Shown in pieces: positions 1 to 10,989 of a stretch of DNA of 64,000 nucleotides. The notes beneath the pieces were generated by a model. It was not told where the DNA came from and searched no databases. It saw only the letters and a list, made by a program, of their open reading frames with translations. Every line of letters begins with the position of its first letter. Within the stretch, counting starts at the first letter, position 1. Source of the stretch: Mucilaginibacter segetis (GTDB lineage Bacteria > Bacteroidota > Bacteroidia > Sphingobacteriales > Sphingobacteriaceae); the NCBI RefSeq assembly GCF_016522075.1, contig NZ_JAEHFW010000003.1, positions 248,001 through 312,000 on the forward strand, read 5' to 3'. The position numbers and the translations under genes are program-made.

Positions 1-932
1 TCCATATGGGTAAAGGTTTTAACAGAGCTTACCAGTTCCGATATCTGATGCGACGATTGGGTAATATCTGCTACCAATTTTTCGGCAAGCAGATAATTGT
101 TCATCCATTTAAGTACCACGTTTAACTGTGGGGCGGGCGTGCAACTGCTTAAATGCTCCATATCCGCGGGGGTAAAGCCGAAACCCGCAAAATTCTCAGC
201 CATATCCAACTCGCTGATATCGTGGTCAAGCAGCCAGTCGGTAAGTTCGTCTTCCCGGTCGGCCATTTGCAGCATACTTAAAACCGGCTGATTAGTATCA
301 GTAAGTTTATGTTGCAAAATATGGTGTATCCTGTCAATTTTTTCGGGAAGAATGTTAAGCCCGGCTGTGGCTTTAAACATATCGGGCATACGTTGTATCC
401 TGTCTTTTAAAGCCGAGGCGCCCCGGTTAATGGCCGCCGCAGGGTTATTCAGTTCATGTGCCAGCCCGGCAGATAGCTTACCCAGGGCAAACATTTTTTC
501 GTTTTGTTGTTGCAGGGAGGTAAAATCGCGTACGCGGCTGGTCATAATATGCACTAATGCTTCCGTAAGCTCATAATGTAATTTTATTCCGGCGTTTACT
601 TTATCGGCAGCGCACTTAAATATCCTTGCTTTTTTTACACATTCGCCATAGCCAATAGCCTTGTTGGCCCTTGAAAAAGGAAGATAGCCGGATATGCCAT
701 CCTTATCCACAACGGTTATCTCGCGCAATTTGCCGTTTTGTACAGCGCACATGCGTATTCGTCCTTCCAAAATAATAAAGGTATTATTAATCGGGTCGCC
801 GGTGTTAAAAAGCCTTTCGCCTTCTTCCAGTTCAATTACAACACCTTCATTAATAAACCATTGTAACTGATCAATAGGTACATCTTTCAGAGCAGGTATG
901 GCCTTTAGTTGTTGGGGCGTTAGGTTATTCAT
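1..932 (-). CDS. Cyclic-nucleotide-binding-domain sensor histidine kinase (C-terminus beyond window edge)
   Basis: Open frame on the minus strand from the ATG at 932 to the window edge, 310 codons visible. Residues 20-125 look like a Crp-type cNMP-binding domain: a beta-roll with FNTGDPINNTFIILEGRIRM near 42-61. A linker follows, then a HisKA dimerisation segment with the H-box GKLSAGLAHELNNPAAA, putting the phospho-acceptor at His159. The ATPase domain must lie outside the window. There is no signal peptide or membrane segment, so this is a soluble kinase. The domain suggests a nucleotide or small-ligand input, but the ligand is not visible. It is divergent from the LOV kinase at 1026. A TATATTTG box lies at 975-982 on this strand. 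Confidence 0.85.
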   Translation of the reverse strand, partial: MNNLTPQQLKAIPALKDVPIDQLQWFINEGVVIELEEGERLFNTGDPINNTFIILEGRIRMCAVQNGKLREITVVDKDGISGYLPFSRANKAIGYGECVKKARIFKCAADKVNAGIKLHYELTEALVHIMTSRVRDFTSLQQQNEKMFALGKLSAGLAHELNNPAAAINRGASALKDRIQRMPDMFKATAGLNILPEKIDRIHHILQHKLTDTNQPVLSMLQMADREDELTDWLLDHDISELDMAENFAGFGFTPADMEHLSSCTPAPQLNVVLKWMNNYLLAEKLVADITQSSHQISELVSSVKTFTHM

Positions 933-1025: not shown

Positions 1026-2624
1026 ATGAAAATTATTTTATATCTTAAAAAAAATTTTAGTACAACATTGGACAATTTTAATAAAGGCGAATTCTCATTT
1101 TCGGAAGGGACTATAGAACAAGACCTTAATCTTTTAGTTAGGGCGCTAAACGCCTCAATTTCAGGCATTATTTTAACTGATAACCGCCAGCCGGACAATC
1201 CTATTATTTACTGTAACAGTGCATTTGAAAAAATATCGGGCTACAAACGCCGTGATATTATAGGACATAATTGTCGGTTTTTGCAGAAAGATGACCGTAA
1301 CCAAAGGCAACGTTTGCAACTAAGGGAAGCCATTGAAAAGGGAATTTCTTGTGTGGTGGAGATACGTAATTATAAAAAGGACGGTACGCTTTTCTGGAAT
1401 GAATTGTATATGTCGCCCATAAAGGATGAAAAAGGCAATGTCAACTATTTTATTGGTGTACAGAACGATATTACACGCAGAAAAAAAGCTGAACTGGAGC
1501 TGCGCAGTAATAACGAATTAATGGAAAGGCGTATAGAAGAACGTACGCAAAGCCTTAAAGAGAGTGAAGACTACCTGGCCAGTATTGTGCAAACTGTTCG
1601 CGAAAGCCTTATTGTACTGGATAAAGATTTTAGAGTATTAAGTGTAAATGAACATTTTTTAAAGGTTTTTAAAGTTAATAAGGAAGAAACCGAAGGTAAA
1701 ATGCTTTACGACCTGGGTAACCGCCAATGGGATATTCCTTTATTAAGGGAACTGCTCGAAAATATATTGCCTACCAATAATCCGGTTGAGGAGTTTGAGG
1801 TTGAGCATGATTTCCCACATATAGGCAAAAAATTAATGTTGCTGAATGCCCATCGGATAGAGCTTGAAGGGCAGTTTAAAGACCGTATATTGTTAGCTAT
1901 TGAAGATATTACCGACAGGCGCGAAATAGAAAGACGTAAGGATGATTTTCTGTCGATTGCCAGTCACGAACTGAAAACACCGCTTACTACCATAAAAGGG
2001 TATGTGCAAATGATGCAGCGTATAATACCTAAGGATGCTGAGGAGAAATTCAGATCGTTACTGAATAAAACAAGTGTTTATATTGAGCGGCTTAACCACC
2101 TTATTGCAGAACTGCTTGATGTATCAAAAATTCAGACCGGAAATATTGAGCTGCATAAAGAGGTATTTGATTTTGATAAAATGGTACATGAAACAGTGGA
2201 GCACATTCAATCTGCAACAAAAACGCATCAGATTGTAGTAAAAGGCAGTGCTACCAATAGTTTTTCGGGCGATGAGTCAAACATTATACAGGTGGTAAAC
2301 AACCTGTTATCTAACGCAATAAAATATTCACCTGATGAAAAAGAGGTGGTAGTTTATCTTTCAAAAGTGAGTGATTACCTTAAACTTTCGGTTACAGACT
2401 TCGGAATGGGTATTAGTATGGAGAATCAGAAGAGGATCTTTGAGCGGTTTTATCGTGTAGGGGAGATACAGCAGCAATTTCCGGGAATGGGGATTGGCTT
2501 GTACGTTTGTGAACAGGTGATAAAAAACCACGGCGGCTCATTGTGGGTAGAGAGCGAACCGGGCAAAGGTTCTACCTTTAGCTTTACATTACCGCTTAAT
2601 GAAAGGGTGGGTAATGCTGAATAA
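1026..2624 (+). CDS. LOV-domain (blue-light) sensor histidine kinase
   Basis: A soluble 532-residue kinase. Residues 40-150 form a LOV domain with the photoactive-cysteine motif GHNCRFLQ (Cys83). The expected flavin contacts are also present: Asn115 and Asn125 in the NYKKDGTLFWNE stretch and the signalling glutamine Gln146 in FIGVQNDIT. A coiled linker (150-180) leads to a second PAS domain (about 183-297), then HisKA with SIASHELKTPL (His314) and a HATPase_c domain with N-box NNLLSNAIKY, DFGMGIS and GMGIGLYV. By family knowledge the LOV cysteine forms a light-driven adduct with FMN and modulates kinase activity. The stop overlaps the start of the receiver gene downstream, so the pair is almost surely one operon. 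The ATG at 1026 has no Shine-Dalgarno, as usual in this phylum. Confidence 0.92.
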   Translation: MKIILYLKKNFSTTLDNFNKGEFSFSEGTIEQDLNLLVRALNASISGIILTDNRQPDNPIIYCNSAFEKISGYKRRDIIGHNCRFLQKDDRNQRQRLQLREAIEKGISCVVEIRNYKKDGTLFWNELYMSPIKDEKGNVNYFIGVQNDITRRKKAELELRSNNELMERRIEERTQSLKESEDYLASIVQTVRESLIVLDKDFRVLSVNEHFLKVFKVNKEETEGKMLYDLGNRQWDIPLLRELLENILPTNNPVEEFEVEHDFPHIGKKLMLLNAHRIELEGQFKDRILLAIEDITDRREIERRKDDFLSIASHELKTPLTTIKGYVQMMQRIIPKDAEEKFRSLLNKTSVYIERLNHLIAELLDVSKIQTGNIELHKEVFDFDKMVHETVEHIQSATKTHQIVVKGSATNSFSGDESNIIQVVNNLLSNAIKYSPDEKEVVVYLSKVSDYLKLSVTDFGMGISMENQKRIFERFYRVGEIQQQFPGMGIGLYVCEQVIKNHGGSLWVESEPGKGSTFSFTLPLNERVGNAE

Positions 2625-2976
2625 AACAATACTTGTTTGTGATGATGATGAAGGTATACTGGATATGTTGGAGATTGTTTTGGAAGATGCCGGTTACCAT
2701 GTTATAGTTGTTAGCAACAGCCTTAAGATATACGAGGCTATTGATAAACAAAAGCCCGATCTGGTATTGCTTGATCTATGGATGCCCGTATTATCAGGCG
2801 ATCAGGTGTTACGTACATTGCGTAAAAATCCGGAAACTGATAAACTACCGGTAATAATAATCTCTGCCAGCAGGGAAGGTAAACATATTGCGGATGAAGC
2901 GGGGGCTAATGGGTTTATTGCCAAACCATTTGATCTGGATCAGCTGGTGAACGATGTGCAAAAGCTGGCATCGTAA
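2614..2976 (+). CDS. Single-domain response regulator (CheY-like)
   Basis: A 120-residue receiver domain with no output domain: acidic pocket DDD at 10-12, phospho-acceptor Asp54 in LLDLWMPVLSG, conserved Ser in IIISAS and Lys in FIAKPFD. The start at 2614 is inside the last codons of the LOV kinase (ATG overlaps ...GCTGAATAA), giving translational coupling. An ATG at 2599 would add five residues, but receivers usually begin just before the ILVCDDD strand, so 2614 is preferred. As the last gene of the pair it is the likely phosphoryl acceptor of the LOV kinase. With no DNA-binding domain it presumably acts by protein contact or in a phosphorelay. Confidence 0.88.
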   Translation: MLNKTILVCDDDEGILDMLEIVLEDAGYHVIVVSNSLKIYEAIDKQKPDLVLLDLWMPVLSGDQVLRTLRKNPETDKLPVIIISASREGKHIADEAGANGFIAKPFDLDQLVNDVQKLAS

Positions 2977-8933: not shown

Positions 8934-10043
8934 TTAGTCTTCCAATGGTTCGGTACTGGCGTCGTAGTTTACATGATTTTCTGCAATCTCGGTTAACAGC
9001 GCATCCGCCGTTTTTTCCTCTTCCAGTGTTTCATTTAGTATTTCAGCAACATCATAATAACCCAGGGTTTTAGCAAGGCTCACCATACCGCCATACGAGG
9101 CAATTTCGTAATGCTCCGCTTTTTGACCGGCAAATATAAGGCCTACATCCCGTTGAGCTGTACCTTCTTCTGTATCACTAATGATCTCGTCGCCTTCGTC
9201 AACTATGCCTGCCATAGCATCACATTTTGTGGTGTCAGGCTCCAACCCTAAAATACTAAAGATTTGCTCCAACCGGGTCACATGGTTTTCTGTTTCCGCT
9301 AAATGGTTGTTAAATGCGTTTTTTAATTCGACGGTAGTTGCTGCTTCAGCCATATCGGGTAGTGTGTCTACTAACTCCTTTTCGGCCCAAAGCAGGTCTT
9401 TTAGTTCATTCACAAAAAATTCCATTAACTTGGAATTGCCTGTGCCGGTTGATGGTTCATCTTGCCATGCCTCTTCTTCATCAAAGCCCTCAGTCTCATA
9501 TTCATCCTCACTATCGTATTCATTTAATGGTTCGTCGTAGGATGAATCTTCATCTACAATGTCATTCTCCTCATCATCAAAAGATGCTATCTGGTCGCGC
9601 AGAGATTTGATAAGATCGTGCCCTTCGTTTATACTCATCTGCTGGGTTTGTAGTACCTGCACTATATCCGGGCTTAAACCATTCTCAGGGTCAAGTGCGG
9701 TACGGTAAGCCGACTTTATAGCGTCCTCGCCGCGTTCGCACTCATTTAAAATAGCTTCCAGATCGCTTCCGGTAAAAGTGTTTTTAATATCTATCCAGGC
9801 GCGGTGCAGGGTACCGGATGCACTTGTTCCGTCCGCCGGTTCATAGCCGCTTTGCTGTACAAGGCTGCTTAGCTCGATGGCGTTATCGCGGCTCTCGCCC
9901 GCGAGTTTGTTAAATAAAAAATTCAGGGCAGTATTGTTCTGTTCCTGTAGTTCGCTTACAGCTTTTTCAAAGCCTTTTACGCGATCGTTATTGATCTCGA
10001 TCAGATCGTTGATCACTTCTATTGATTTTTCAGAGATTTCCAT
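8934..10043 (-). CDS. PA2169-YciF fusion, ferritin-like stress protein
   Basis: About 369 residues. The N-terminal domain (1-125) matches the PA2169/DUF2383 four-helix bundle, beginning MEISEKSIEVINDLIE. A strongly acidic linker follows (DDEEND... through about residue 190). The C-terminal domain (about 200-355) is YciF/DUF892 with the helices FFVNELKDLLWAEKELV and GQKAEHYEIASYGG carrying conserved Glu/His. The start at 10043 is preferred because PA2169 proteins begin here and it leaves 13 bases after the catalase stop. An upstream ATG at 10085 would overlap the catalase. Both domains are usually separate stress or ferritin-like proteins. Here they are fused and co-transcribed with Mn-catalase, which suggests a role in oxidative or envelope stress (inference). 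Confidence 0.85.
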   Translation of the reverse strand: MEISEKSIEVINDLIEINNDRVKGFEKAVSELQEQNNTALNFLFNKLAGESRDNAIELSSLVQQSGYEPADGTSASGTLHRAWIDIKNTFTGSDLEAILNECERGEDAIKSAYRTALDPENGLSPDIVQVLQTQQMSINEGHDLIKSLRDQIASFDDEENDIVDEDSSYDEPLNEYDSEDEYETEGFDEEEAWQDEPSTGTGNSKLMEFFVNELKDLLWAEKELVDTLPDMAEAATTVELKNAFNNHLAETENHVTRLEQIFSILGLEPDTTKCDAMAGIVDEGDEIISDTEEGTAQRDVGLIFAGQKAEHYEIASYGGMVSLAKTLGYYDVAEILNETLEEEKTADALLTEIAENHVNYDASTEPLED

Positions 10044-10056
10044 AGGTTTATGTGTA

Positions 10057-10989
10057 TTAGTTTTTATAATCGCTCCATTGGGCAACGCCTTGCGGATCCG
10101 TTTTCTTTACTTCGCTGCTTTTAAGCTCACTCATTTCAGTGTTCTTTTTTTCCATTGCCTTAAGATCCTTGTCGGCACCTTTCGGTAATTTGGTTTGCCC
10201 TTCGGTTTCGCGTACATAAGCAACAGGGTTTTCTATATAATCAAACTCCTTACCCATGCCTTTGATCTCCCCTTCGTTCCACGGACCACGGACCGTACCT
10301 TCGGATAAATTATATGCCTGTTGCAGGTAACGCGGATCAGCAGCTAAAACAGCCGGTGGAAAATTAGGTTGAATGCTCTCTAAAGCGGCTTCAAACATTT
10401 TATAATGGGCTACTTCGCGCGTCATTAAAAAGGATAGTGTTTCATGAATGTACGGGTCGTCTGTAAATTTCATAAGGTGTTCATACACCAGTTTAGCTCT
10501 TGATTCGGAAGCAAGGTTACTTCGCAGGTCCACGGTAAGGTCGCCGTTAGATGCGATATACGATGCGCACCATGGAATGCCCTGGCTGTTCCGTGGTGTG
10601 GGACCACCACCTGTAATAATTGCAAACTGAGGATTAGCAGTTAACGCCGCGTGAATAATGTTCTCCTTAGCGGCTTTGCCATTCATTACCTGCATAATTT
10701 CGGAATTATCTGCAGCATCCTTAAGTTCGCCGTTAACACCGGTAAGCAGCATTTGGATAGTAGCACCAACGATCTCCAGGTGACTGAATTCTTCGGTAGC
10801 GATATCCATCAACATATCATACTTGTCGGGATGCGGCATCTTTGCGCCAAATGCTTGGGTAAAATACTGCATTGCAGCGGCAAGTTCGCCGTTTTCGCCA
10901 CCAAATTGTTCAAGTAACAGGTTGGCGAAGCGTGGGTCAGGGCGGGATACCCTGGCATTAAATTGTAGGTCTTTTACGTGATGAAACAT
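10057..10989 (-). CDS. Manganese catalase
   Basis: A 310-residue non-haem dimanganese catalase converting hydrogen peroxide to water and oxygen. Ligand positions match the family: Glu35 (GELAAAMQY), Glu67 and His70 (ATEEFSHLE), Glu162 (ASESRAK) and His195 (REVAHYKMFE). The C-terminal tail is lysine/glutamate-rich and unlike the core. It is the first gene of a two-gene minus-strand operon with the PA2169-YciF fusion. The cytosolic location is inferred from the lack of a signal peptide. Confidence 0.93.
   Translation of the reverse strand: MFHHVKDLQFNARVSRPDPRFANLLLEQFGGENGELAAAMQYFTQAFGAKMPHPDKYDMLMDIATEEFSHLEIVGATIQMLLTGVNGELKDAADNSEIMQVMNGKAAKENIIHAALTANPQFAIITGGGPTPRNSQGIPWCASYIASNGDLTVDLRSNLASESRAKLVYEHLMKFTDDPYIHETLSFLMTREVAHYKMFEAALESIQPNFPPAVLAADPRYLQQAYNLSEGTVRGPWNEGEIKGMGKEFDYIENPVAYVRETEGQTKLPKGADKDLKAMEKKNTEMSELKSSEVKKTDPQGVAQWSDYKN

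Follow-up and report, generated by a model that had tools for sequence, protein, structure and literature searches.

A LOV-PAS histidine kinase overlapping a lone receiver in Mucilaginibacter segetis: a probable blue-light two-component pair from a widespread Bacteroidota family

The window, i.e. the whole analysed stretch of 64,000 nucleotides from Mucilaginibacter segetis, carries near its left end a gene for a histidine kinase with a LOV domain and, overlapping it on the same strand, a gene for a receiver. The features of this region are as follows.

1..932, minus strand: divergent histidine kinase with a weak cNMP-binding N-terminus, extending to the left of the window; not conserved beside the relatives
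1026..2624, plus strand: open reading frame of the LOV-PAS-HisKA histidine kinase, 532 aa as listed; likely start TTG 1068, giving 518 aa
1134..1508, plus strand: LOV domain, residues 37-161, with GHNCRFLQ, Cys83 (codon 1272-1274), Asn115, Asn125 and Gln146
1473..1601, plus strand: long helix, residues 150-192, in the predicted model a probable coiled-coil linker between LOV and the second PAS domain (PAS2)
1602..1910, plus strand: PAS2, residues about 193-295, without LOV motif, highly conserved
1938..2141, plus strand: HisKA/DHp domain (Pfam PF00512) with His314 and HELKT, a HExxT phosphatase-type motif
2268..2600, plus strand: HATPase_c catalytic domain (Pfam PF02518)
2599..2976, plus strand: single-domain receiver (REC) with Asp15, Asp16, the phospho-acceptor Asp59, Ser89 and Lys109; likely start ATG 2614
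8934..10085, minus strand: DUF2383-DUF892 fusion, a YciF-type stress protein (Pfam)
10057..10989, minus strand: manganese catalase (Pfam PF05067)

The domain order of the kinase frame is LOV-helix-PAS-HisKA-HATPase_c. Pfam reported two PAS regions, HisKA at residues 305-372 (58.9 bits) and HATPase_c at residues 415-525 (105.8 bits); the latter two scored above the curated cut-off. GHNCRFLQ begins at residue 80, and residues 83, 115, 125 and 146 are Cys, Asn, Asn and Gln, exactly as the original prediction had named them for the photoactive cysteine and the flavin contacts. By sequence, the solved proteins nearest to the first PAS domain were LOV-FixL chimeras, YtvA and a short LOV protein of Pseudomonas putida, and the best PDB match to the kinase (E 1.2e-46) extended over a whole LOV-FixL chimera. 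The photoactive Cys and the three flavin contacts were in register in the alignments to the two best solved matches. The Pfam domains and the solved LOV proteins agree with the earlier assignment as a LOV kinase, and a photoreceptor kinase that is predicted to respond to light is the best reading of this gene. Degeneration of the first PAS domain with loss of flavin binding is highly improbable. We found no point in its favour, and the relatives show no variation in the four contacts or in the LOV core around them; the four residues themselves are invariant in 56 of 56 aligned kinases with an adjacent receiver.

An AlphaFold2 model of the kinase, built from 15 sequences, was of moderate confidence (pLDDT 74.3, pTM 0.38). 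In it, one helix (150-192) spans the stretch that separates LOV from PAS2, and a second (296-333) runs into HisKA; the linker helix is partly of low confidence (pLDDT <50 at 183-191). The LOV-FixL chimeras and the full-length, dimeric Brucella LOV-PAS-HK (6ph4) were among the Foldseek matches of this model. PAS2 showed a mean pairwise identity of 0.69 over 56 rows, and H314, E315 and T318 were invariant in all of these. As HELKT fits the HExx-hydrophilic motif of HisKA kinases, described in PMC6798134, switching between kinase and phosphatase is probable.

The listed frames 1026..2624 (532 codons) and 2599..2976 (125 codons) share 26 nt. In 10 of 14 aligned relatives the start Met lies at the equivalent of kinase residue 15, which corresponds to TTG 1068, and the receivers of most relatives start at, or one residue past, the Met at 2614. 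Since the starts of the relatives align with TTG 1068 and ATG 2614, the likely products comprise 518 and 120 aa with an overlap of 11 nt, and Cys83 would become Cys69.

Response_reg was the sole Pfam domain in the 125-aa receiver frame. With its acidic pocket, Asp, Ser/Thr and Lys and no other domain, the protein is a single-domain response regulator; D15, D16, D59, S89 and K109 were invariant in 56 of 56 rows. An overlap of the kinase with a stand-alone receiver had been claimed before, and a complete receiver without output domain was indeed found at 2599-2976. The claim that the output through this partner is not transcriptional stands for the receiver itself, which has no output domain, but relay of the phosphoryl group to a transcription factor is possible.

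Among 60 related genomes, 14 long LOV-PAS-kinase loci were inspected with their flanks, and 13 of them had an adjacent co-oriented receiver (present in L038-L050, absent in L051). None of the three short LOV kinases of about 375-380 aa (L052-L054) had one. A scan of named genomes yielded at least 79 loci, of which 61 were counted as intact LOV kinases; L177, L178, L180, L188 and L189 (truncated or broken) and L190-L202 (13 loci, not LOV) were left out. The intact loci belong to Mucilaginibacter, Pedobacter, Sphingobacterium, Chryseobacterium, Daejeonella and other genera; Olivibacter is also among the genera of the scan. GxNCRFLQ, both Asn, the Gln and the His were kept in 61 of these 61 Bacteroidota relatives, and a co-oriented receiver adjoined the kinase in 55. 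Thus, the pair is not a chance arrangement. The adjacent receiver was missing in the remaining six (L145, L169, L172, L174, L175, L186) and also in a three-genome clade (L209-L211); hence it is not indispensable.

Three single loci are described here for themselves. In L169 (Pedobacter petrophilus) the LOV kinase is directly followed by the PAS kinase that follows the receiver in L132; the receiver seems to be lost. In Mucilaginibacter sp. Bleaf8 (L051 / L175) a bacteriophytochrome kinase is encoded divergently beside the receiver-less LOV kinase, a possible blue/red sensor pair. L191, on a contig of a Saccharibacteria MAG, encodes a PAS-kinase 46% identical to PAS2-kinase of the window, with LOV unaligned and a receiver following; contamination is possible.

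For 56 kinase-receiver pairs (55 relatives and the window) the pairwise identities of the receivers correlated with those of the kinase domains, with r of 0.75 for DHp-REC, 0.75 for CA-REC, 0.66 for LOV-REC and 0.62 for PAS2-REC. By their adjacency and a co-divergence that is closest to the kinase core, kinase and receiver appear to behave as a cognate pair would, with phosphotransfer presumed between them.

The abundance of LOV genes was estimated with a back-translated GxNCRFLQ-like DNA pattern, which is loose, as it also accepts Ser in place of Arg and Phe in place of Leu. One match was obtained in the 4.09-Mb genome of the window (reversed control 0). The pattern occurred in 50/149 genomes of the genus (reversed control 5/149) and in 35/395 genomes of an even phylum sample (reversed control 3/395). 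Of the 50 genomes of the genus with the LOV pattern, 44 also have a phytochrome PHY domain; the search for this domain in the window's own genome found none. Beside its single LOV-pattern gene, that genome gave 68 receiver and 53 PAS matches. Photoreceptor histidine kinases had been described as sparse in soil Bacteroidota. For the genus Mucilaginibacter these frequencies contradict this statement, and light-sensing kinases are not sparse there.

Several known proteins share part of this architecture. The LOV-FixL chimeras YF1 and SB1F1/SB2F1 (4gcz, 8a7f), the best PDB sequence matches of the window kinase, likewise have a LOV domain joined by a coiled coil to a HisKA kinase, but they are engineered and lack a second PAS domain. 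FixJ, the partner of LOV-FixL chimeras, is a transcription factor. With 168.8 bits over residues 36-167 the LOV domain resembles the YtvA family (NF052652), but it stays below the cut-off of 250 and outside this family; the output domain of YtvA is STAS and not a kinase. The order of LOV, long helical linker, PAS domain of unknown function and kinase is that of Brucella abortus LOV-HK (6PH4), and a LOV kinase with a cognate receiver is also found in Caulobacter LovK-LovR. The kinase of Brucella LOV-HK is of the HWE/HisKA2 class and that of LovK of the HWE class; Caulobacter LovR is a single-domain protein. To our knowledge, LovK has no second PAS domain. In the window kinase neither HWE_HK nor HisKA_2 was detected with Pfam at E 0.001; PF00512 HisKA was found instead and, unlike in LovK, carries the HExxT motif. 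Thus, being HisKA where theirs are HWE, the window kinase falls outside the kinase class of LovK and Brucella LOV-HK. It also differs from the Brucella protein, which has PhyR as its partner, in having its own single-domain receiver. PMC8092228 describes the LOV-PAS-HK build and the PhyR partner for Brucella, and PMC12148442 assigns alphaproteobacterial stress-response kinases in general to the HWE/HisKA2 class. LovK-LovR regulates a stress pathway and is linked to the general stress response, according to PMC4844311. This 2014 review was also what the searched open-licence library offered on LOV domain histidine kinases, Bacteroidetes and blue light; in the same library no paper joined Mucilaginibacter, blue light and LOV, and none joined DUF892 with a response regulator.

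Downstream (3') of the pair follow DinB, an unknown gene, a rhamnosidase-type gene and a TPR kinase, and the DUF2383-DUF892 and Mn-catalase genes lie 6-8 kb downstream on the opposite strand. Beyond the divergent cNMP-kinase, to the left of the window, lies a receiver-thioredoxin-reductase-like fusion. This flavoprotein (L058:5847-7502) and the weak-cNMP kinase beside it (window 1-932) form a pair with a redox-enzyme response regulator. A further lone receiver (L058:2487-2852) is located ~5 kb left of the window. The genes flanking the window's pair were not found beside the LOV kinases of relatives. Hence the neighbouring genes (cNBD-kinase, receiver-reductase fusion, DinB, rhamnosidase) were dropped as a guide to the output. 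In L216 a DUF892-DUF2383 fusion and a Mn-catalase gene lie about 9-11 kb from the LOV kinase.

Because stress-type genes recurred near relatives, the linkage to DUF892 was examined for 73 LOV-pattern places in 50 genus genomes, which are pattern matches and not all verified LOV genes. Observed and expected numbers both rest on the 150 listed of 251 DUF892 matches. A listed DUF892 gene lay within 10 kb at 17/73 LOV places (0.83 expected at random positions) and was absent from this distance at 56/73; within 25 kb the count was 27/73 against 2.05 expected. Split by score, ordinary DUF892 genes accounted for 7/73 within 10 kb (0.64 expected) and weak-scoring ones for 11/73 (0.19 expected). As a control, HisKA kinases at a distance of over 30 kb from LOV (150 listed of 284 HisKA matches) were used in four one-contig genomes. 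Of the LOV places, 4/8 had a listed DUF892 gene no further than 10 kb away, and of these listed HisKA kinases 2/137 (Fisher p 5.7e-5, where P values assume independent genomes and relatives are not). This control is biased toward LOV, as the genomes were chosen after a linked LOV place had been seen in each; the genus-wide count is free of this selection bias. Weak-clade DUF892-like genes also lay near phytochromes (9/55 within 10 kb, 0.29 expected). In four of five inspected phytochrome-linked loci (L224, L225, L227, L228) they stood beside the same gene, which we take to be rpoN-like. Shared ancestry explains much of this, and the phytochrome linkage is therefore not independent support.

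Heme catalase was within 10 kb of 3/73 LOV places (0.34 expected), and the idea of an operon with catalase was abandoned, as it concerns few loci only. In three Pedobacter loci (L139, L173, L174) genes for DUF892, heme catalase and ankyrin proteins lie no more than about 5 kb from the LOV kinase. In L055:4319-4780 a shortened LOV domain continues in frame into an ankyrin-repeat end; by appearance a recombination product, it adjoins a DUF892 gene (G011). Linkage to catalase and YciF-type genes would suit a redox signal as well as light, and a LovK paper title in the reference list of PMC4844311 speaks of integrated light and redox signals. It is nevertheless improbable that the LOV domain serves chiefly as a flavin redox sensor for which light is incidental, since the adduct Cys, needless for a pure redox sensor, was kept in 61/61. 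Sensing of blue light is the reading followed here.

The DUF892 genes with weak scores make up a subfamily, D892R (profile A3). Its profile matches the YciF structures 2gyq, 4eru, 7tmv and 2gs4, and other residues occupy several Glu/His positions that are conserved in the ordinary DUF892 family. An HPt-like role of D892R was rejected, as the profile matches were to YciF structures and no HPt evidence was seen. Scores of at least 200 bits were reached by 38 D892R genes, and 21 of the 23 inspected were immediately preceded by a co-oriented gene for a lone receiver of about 120-150 aa (REC2R). The two others are L210, which stops at the contig end, and L237, which has none. Beside the DUF892-like genes of 11 weaker-scoring loci (L223-L228, L238-L242) no REC2R was found. 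Within 10 kb of a LOV place were 13 of the 38 genes (0.21 expected) and within 10 kb of a phytochrome 4 (0.22 expected). At a threshold of E 1e-25 the D892R profile was found in 6/395 phylum-sample genomes, all in the family of the window.

The REC2R-D892R two-gene unit was observed in L203-L209, L211, L212, L214, L215 and L229-L236, near LOV kinases and sometimes phytochromes. The one-strand order LOV-HK, REC, REC2R, D892R occurs in L203-L206, L167, L170 (Daejeonella lutea) and L171, a list in which some genomes may appear twice under different names. The unit precedes the kinase in L207 and in L212, where the kinase frame is broken, and in L208, L209, L211, L214 and L215 it is nearby in another orientation or place. 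The REC2R of L229, L231, L232 and L235 scored somewhat higher in phmmer to L058:2487-2852 than to the window receiver.

For DUF892 in general there is a considerable, though less than even, chance that the genes are hitchhikers that gather with LOV genes in accessory islands without functional link. The flanks of LOV loci are highly variable, and the enrichment reaches to 25 kb, wider than an operon. Against this, the other HisKA kinases of the four genomes were not enriched and the one-strand order recurs, Daejeonella included. Furthermore, the linked kinases are not one clade in a tree of 86 kinases. This tree needs 5 changes for the label 'other arrangement' and 2 for 'downstream' (labelled rows only); thus a single inherited event does not seem to account for the linkage.

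The second receiver bears on the role of the first. The receiver may be a phosphate sink or a feedback regulator of the kinase, the real output running via another receiver, e.g. of the REC2R type. Such a role would suit a single-domain protein without output domain. A second receiver follows the first in all loci with the one-strand order, L209 and L211 keep only REC2R near the LOV kinase, the first receiver missing, and LovK-LovR is partly a negative regulator of its stress pathway in PMC4844311. For the window we consider this role possible but rather unlikely, as no REC2R-D892R pair stands beside its kinase. The genome has one weaker D892R relative (C1:1085394, 123 bits), with no receiver within 5.5 kb on each side. 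For the same reason REC2R-D892R cannot be claimed as the output of the window's pair.

We regard it as probable that kinase and receiver form a blue-light two-component pair, a HisKA kinase with its cognate lone receiver, the output of which is probably stress protection. Both proteins are probably cytosolic. The LOV domain would bind flavin and, as expected from its family, form an adduct between Cys83 and flavin under blue light. The light-induced change may run via the helical linker and then PAS2 to the HisKA kinase and shift the balance of autokinase and phosphatase, the latter suggested by HELKT. The length of the linker was discarded as an unreliable predictor of the sign of light control. 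Asp59 of the overlapping receiver would accept the phosphoryl group; this transfer is suggested by the observed adjacency and co-divergence. The receiver may then bind another protein or take part in a relay. An effect on the stress or oxidative-protection state, to which the gene linkage in relatives points, would be the most likely output.

A more far-reaching proposal, which we consider doubtful, is that Sphingobacteriaceae (Mucilaginibacter, Daejeonella and relatives) have their own light-and-stress pathway from LOV-PAS-HisKA and REC via REC2R to D892R, with the window as a branch. In this pathway REC2R would control D892R, a YciF-like helical bundle with several conserved Glu/His lost, which might be a signalling partner and not an iron protein. 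The window's pair would then be a branch wired to the DUF2383-DUF892 and Mn-catalase genes.

In itself, the kinase-receiver pair of the window is real and belongs to a known kind and to a widespread Bacteroidota family. This family is large, its members are probable blue-light kinases that have a lone receiver, and it includes typical soil and plant-surface genera. The linkage to stress genes is the part of the finding worth following. Should YciF-type and catalase genes be functionally linked to these kinases, non-photosynthetic Bacteroidota would use blue light to anticipate oxidative stress, which is testable. REC2R with a degenerate YciF protein would add a new type of output for a receiver, and the Sphingobacteriaceae pathway, if true, would be a Bacteroidota counterpart to the stress switch of Alphaproteobacteria, built from different parts.
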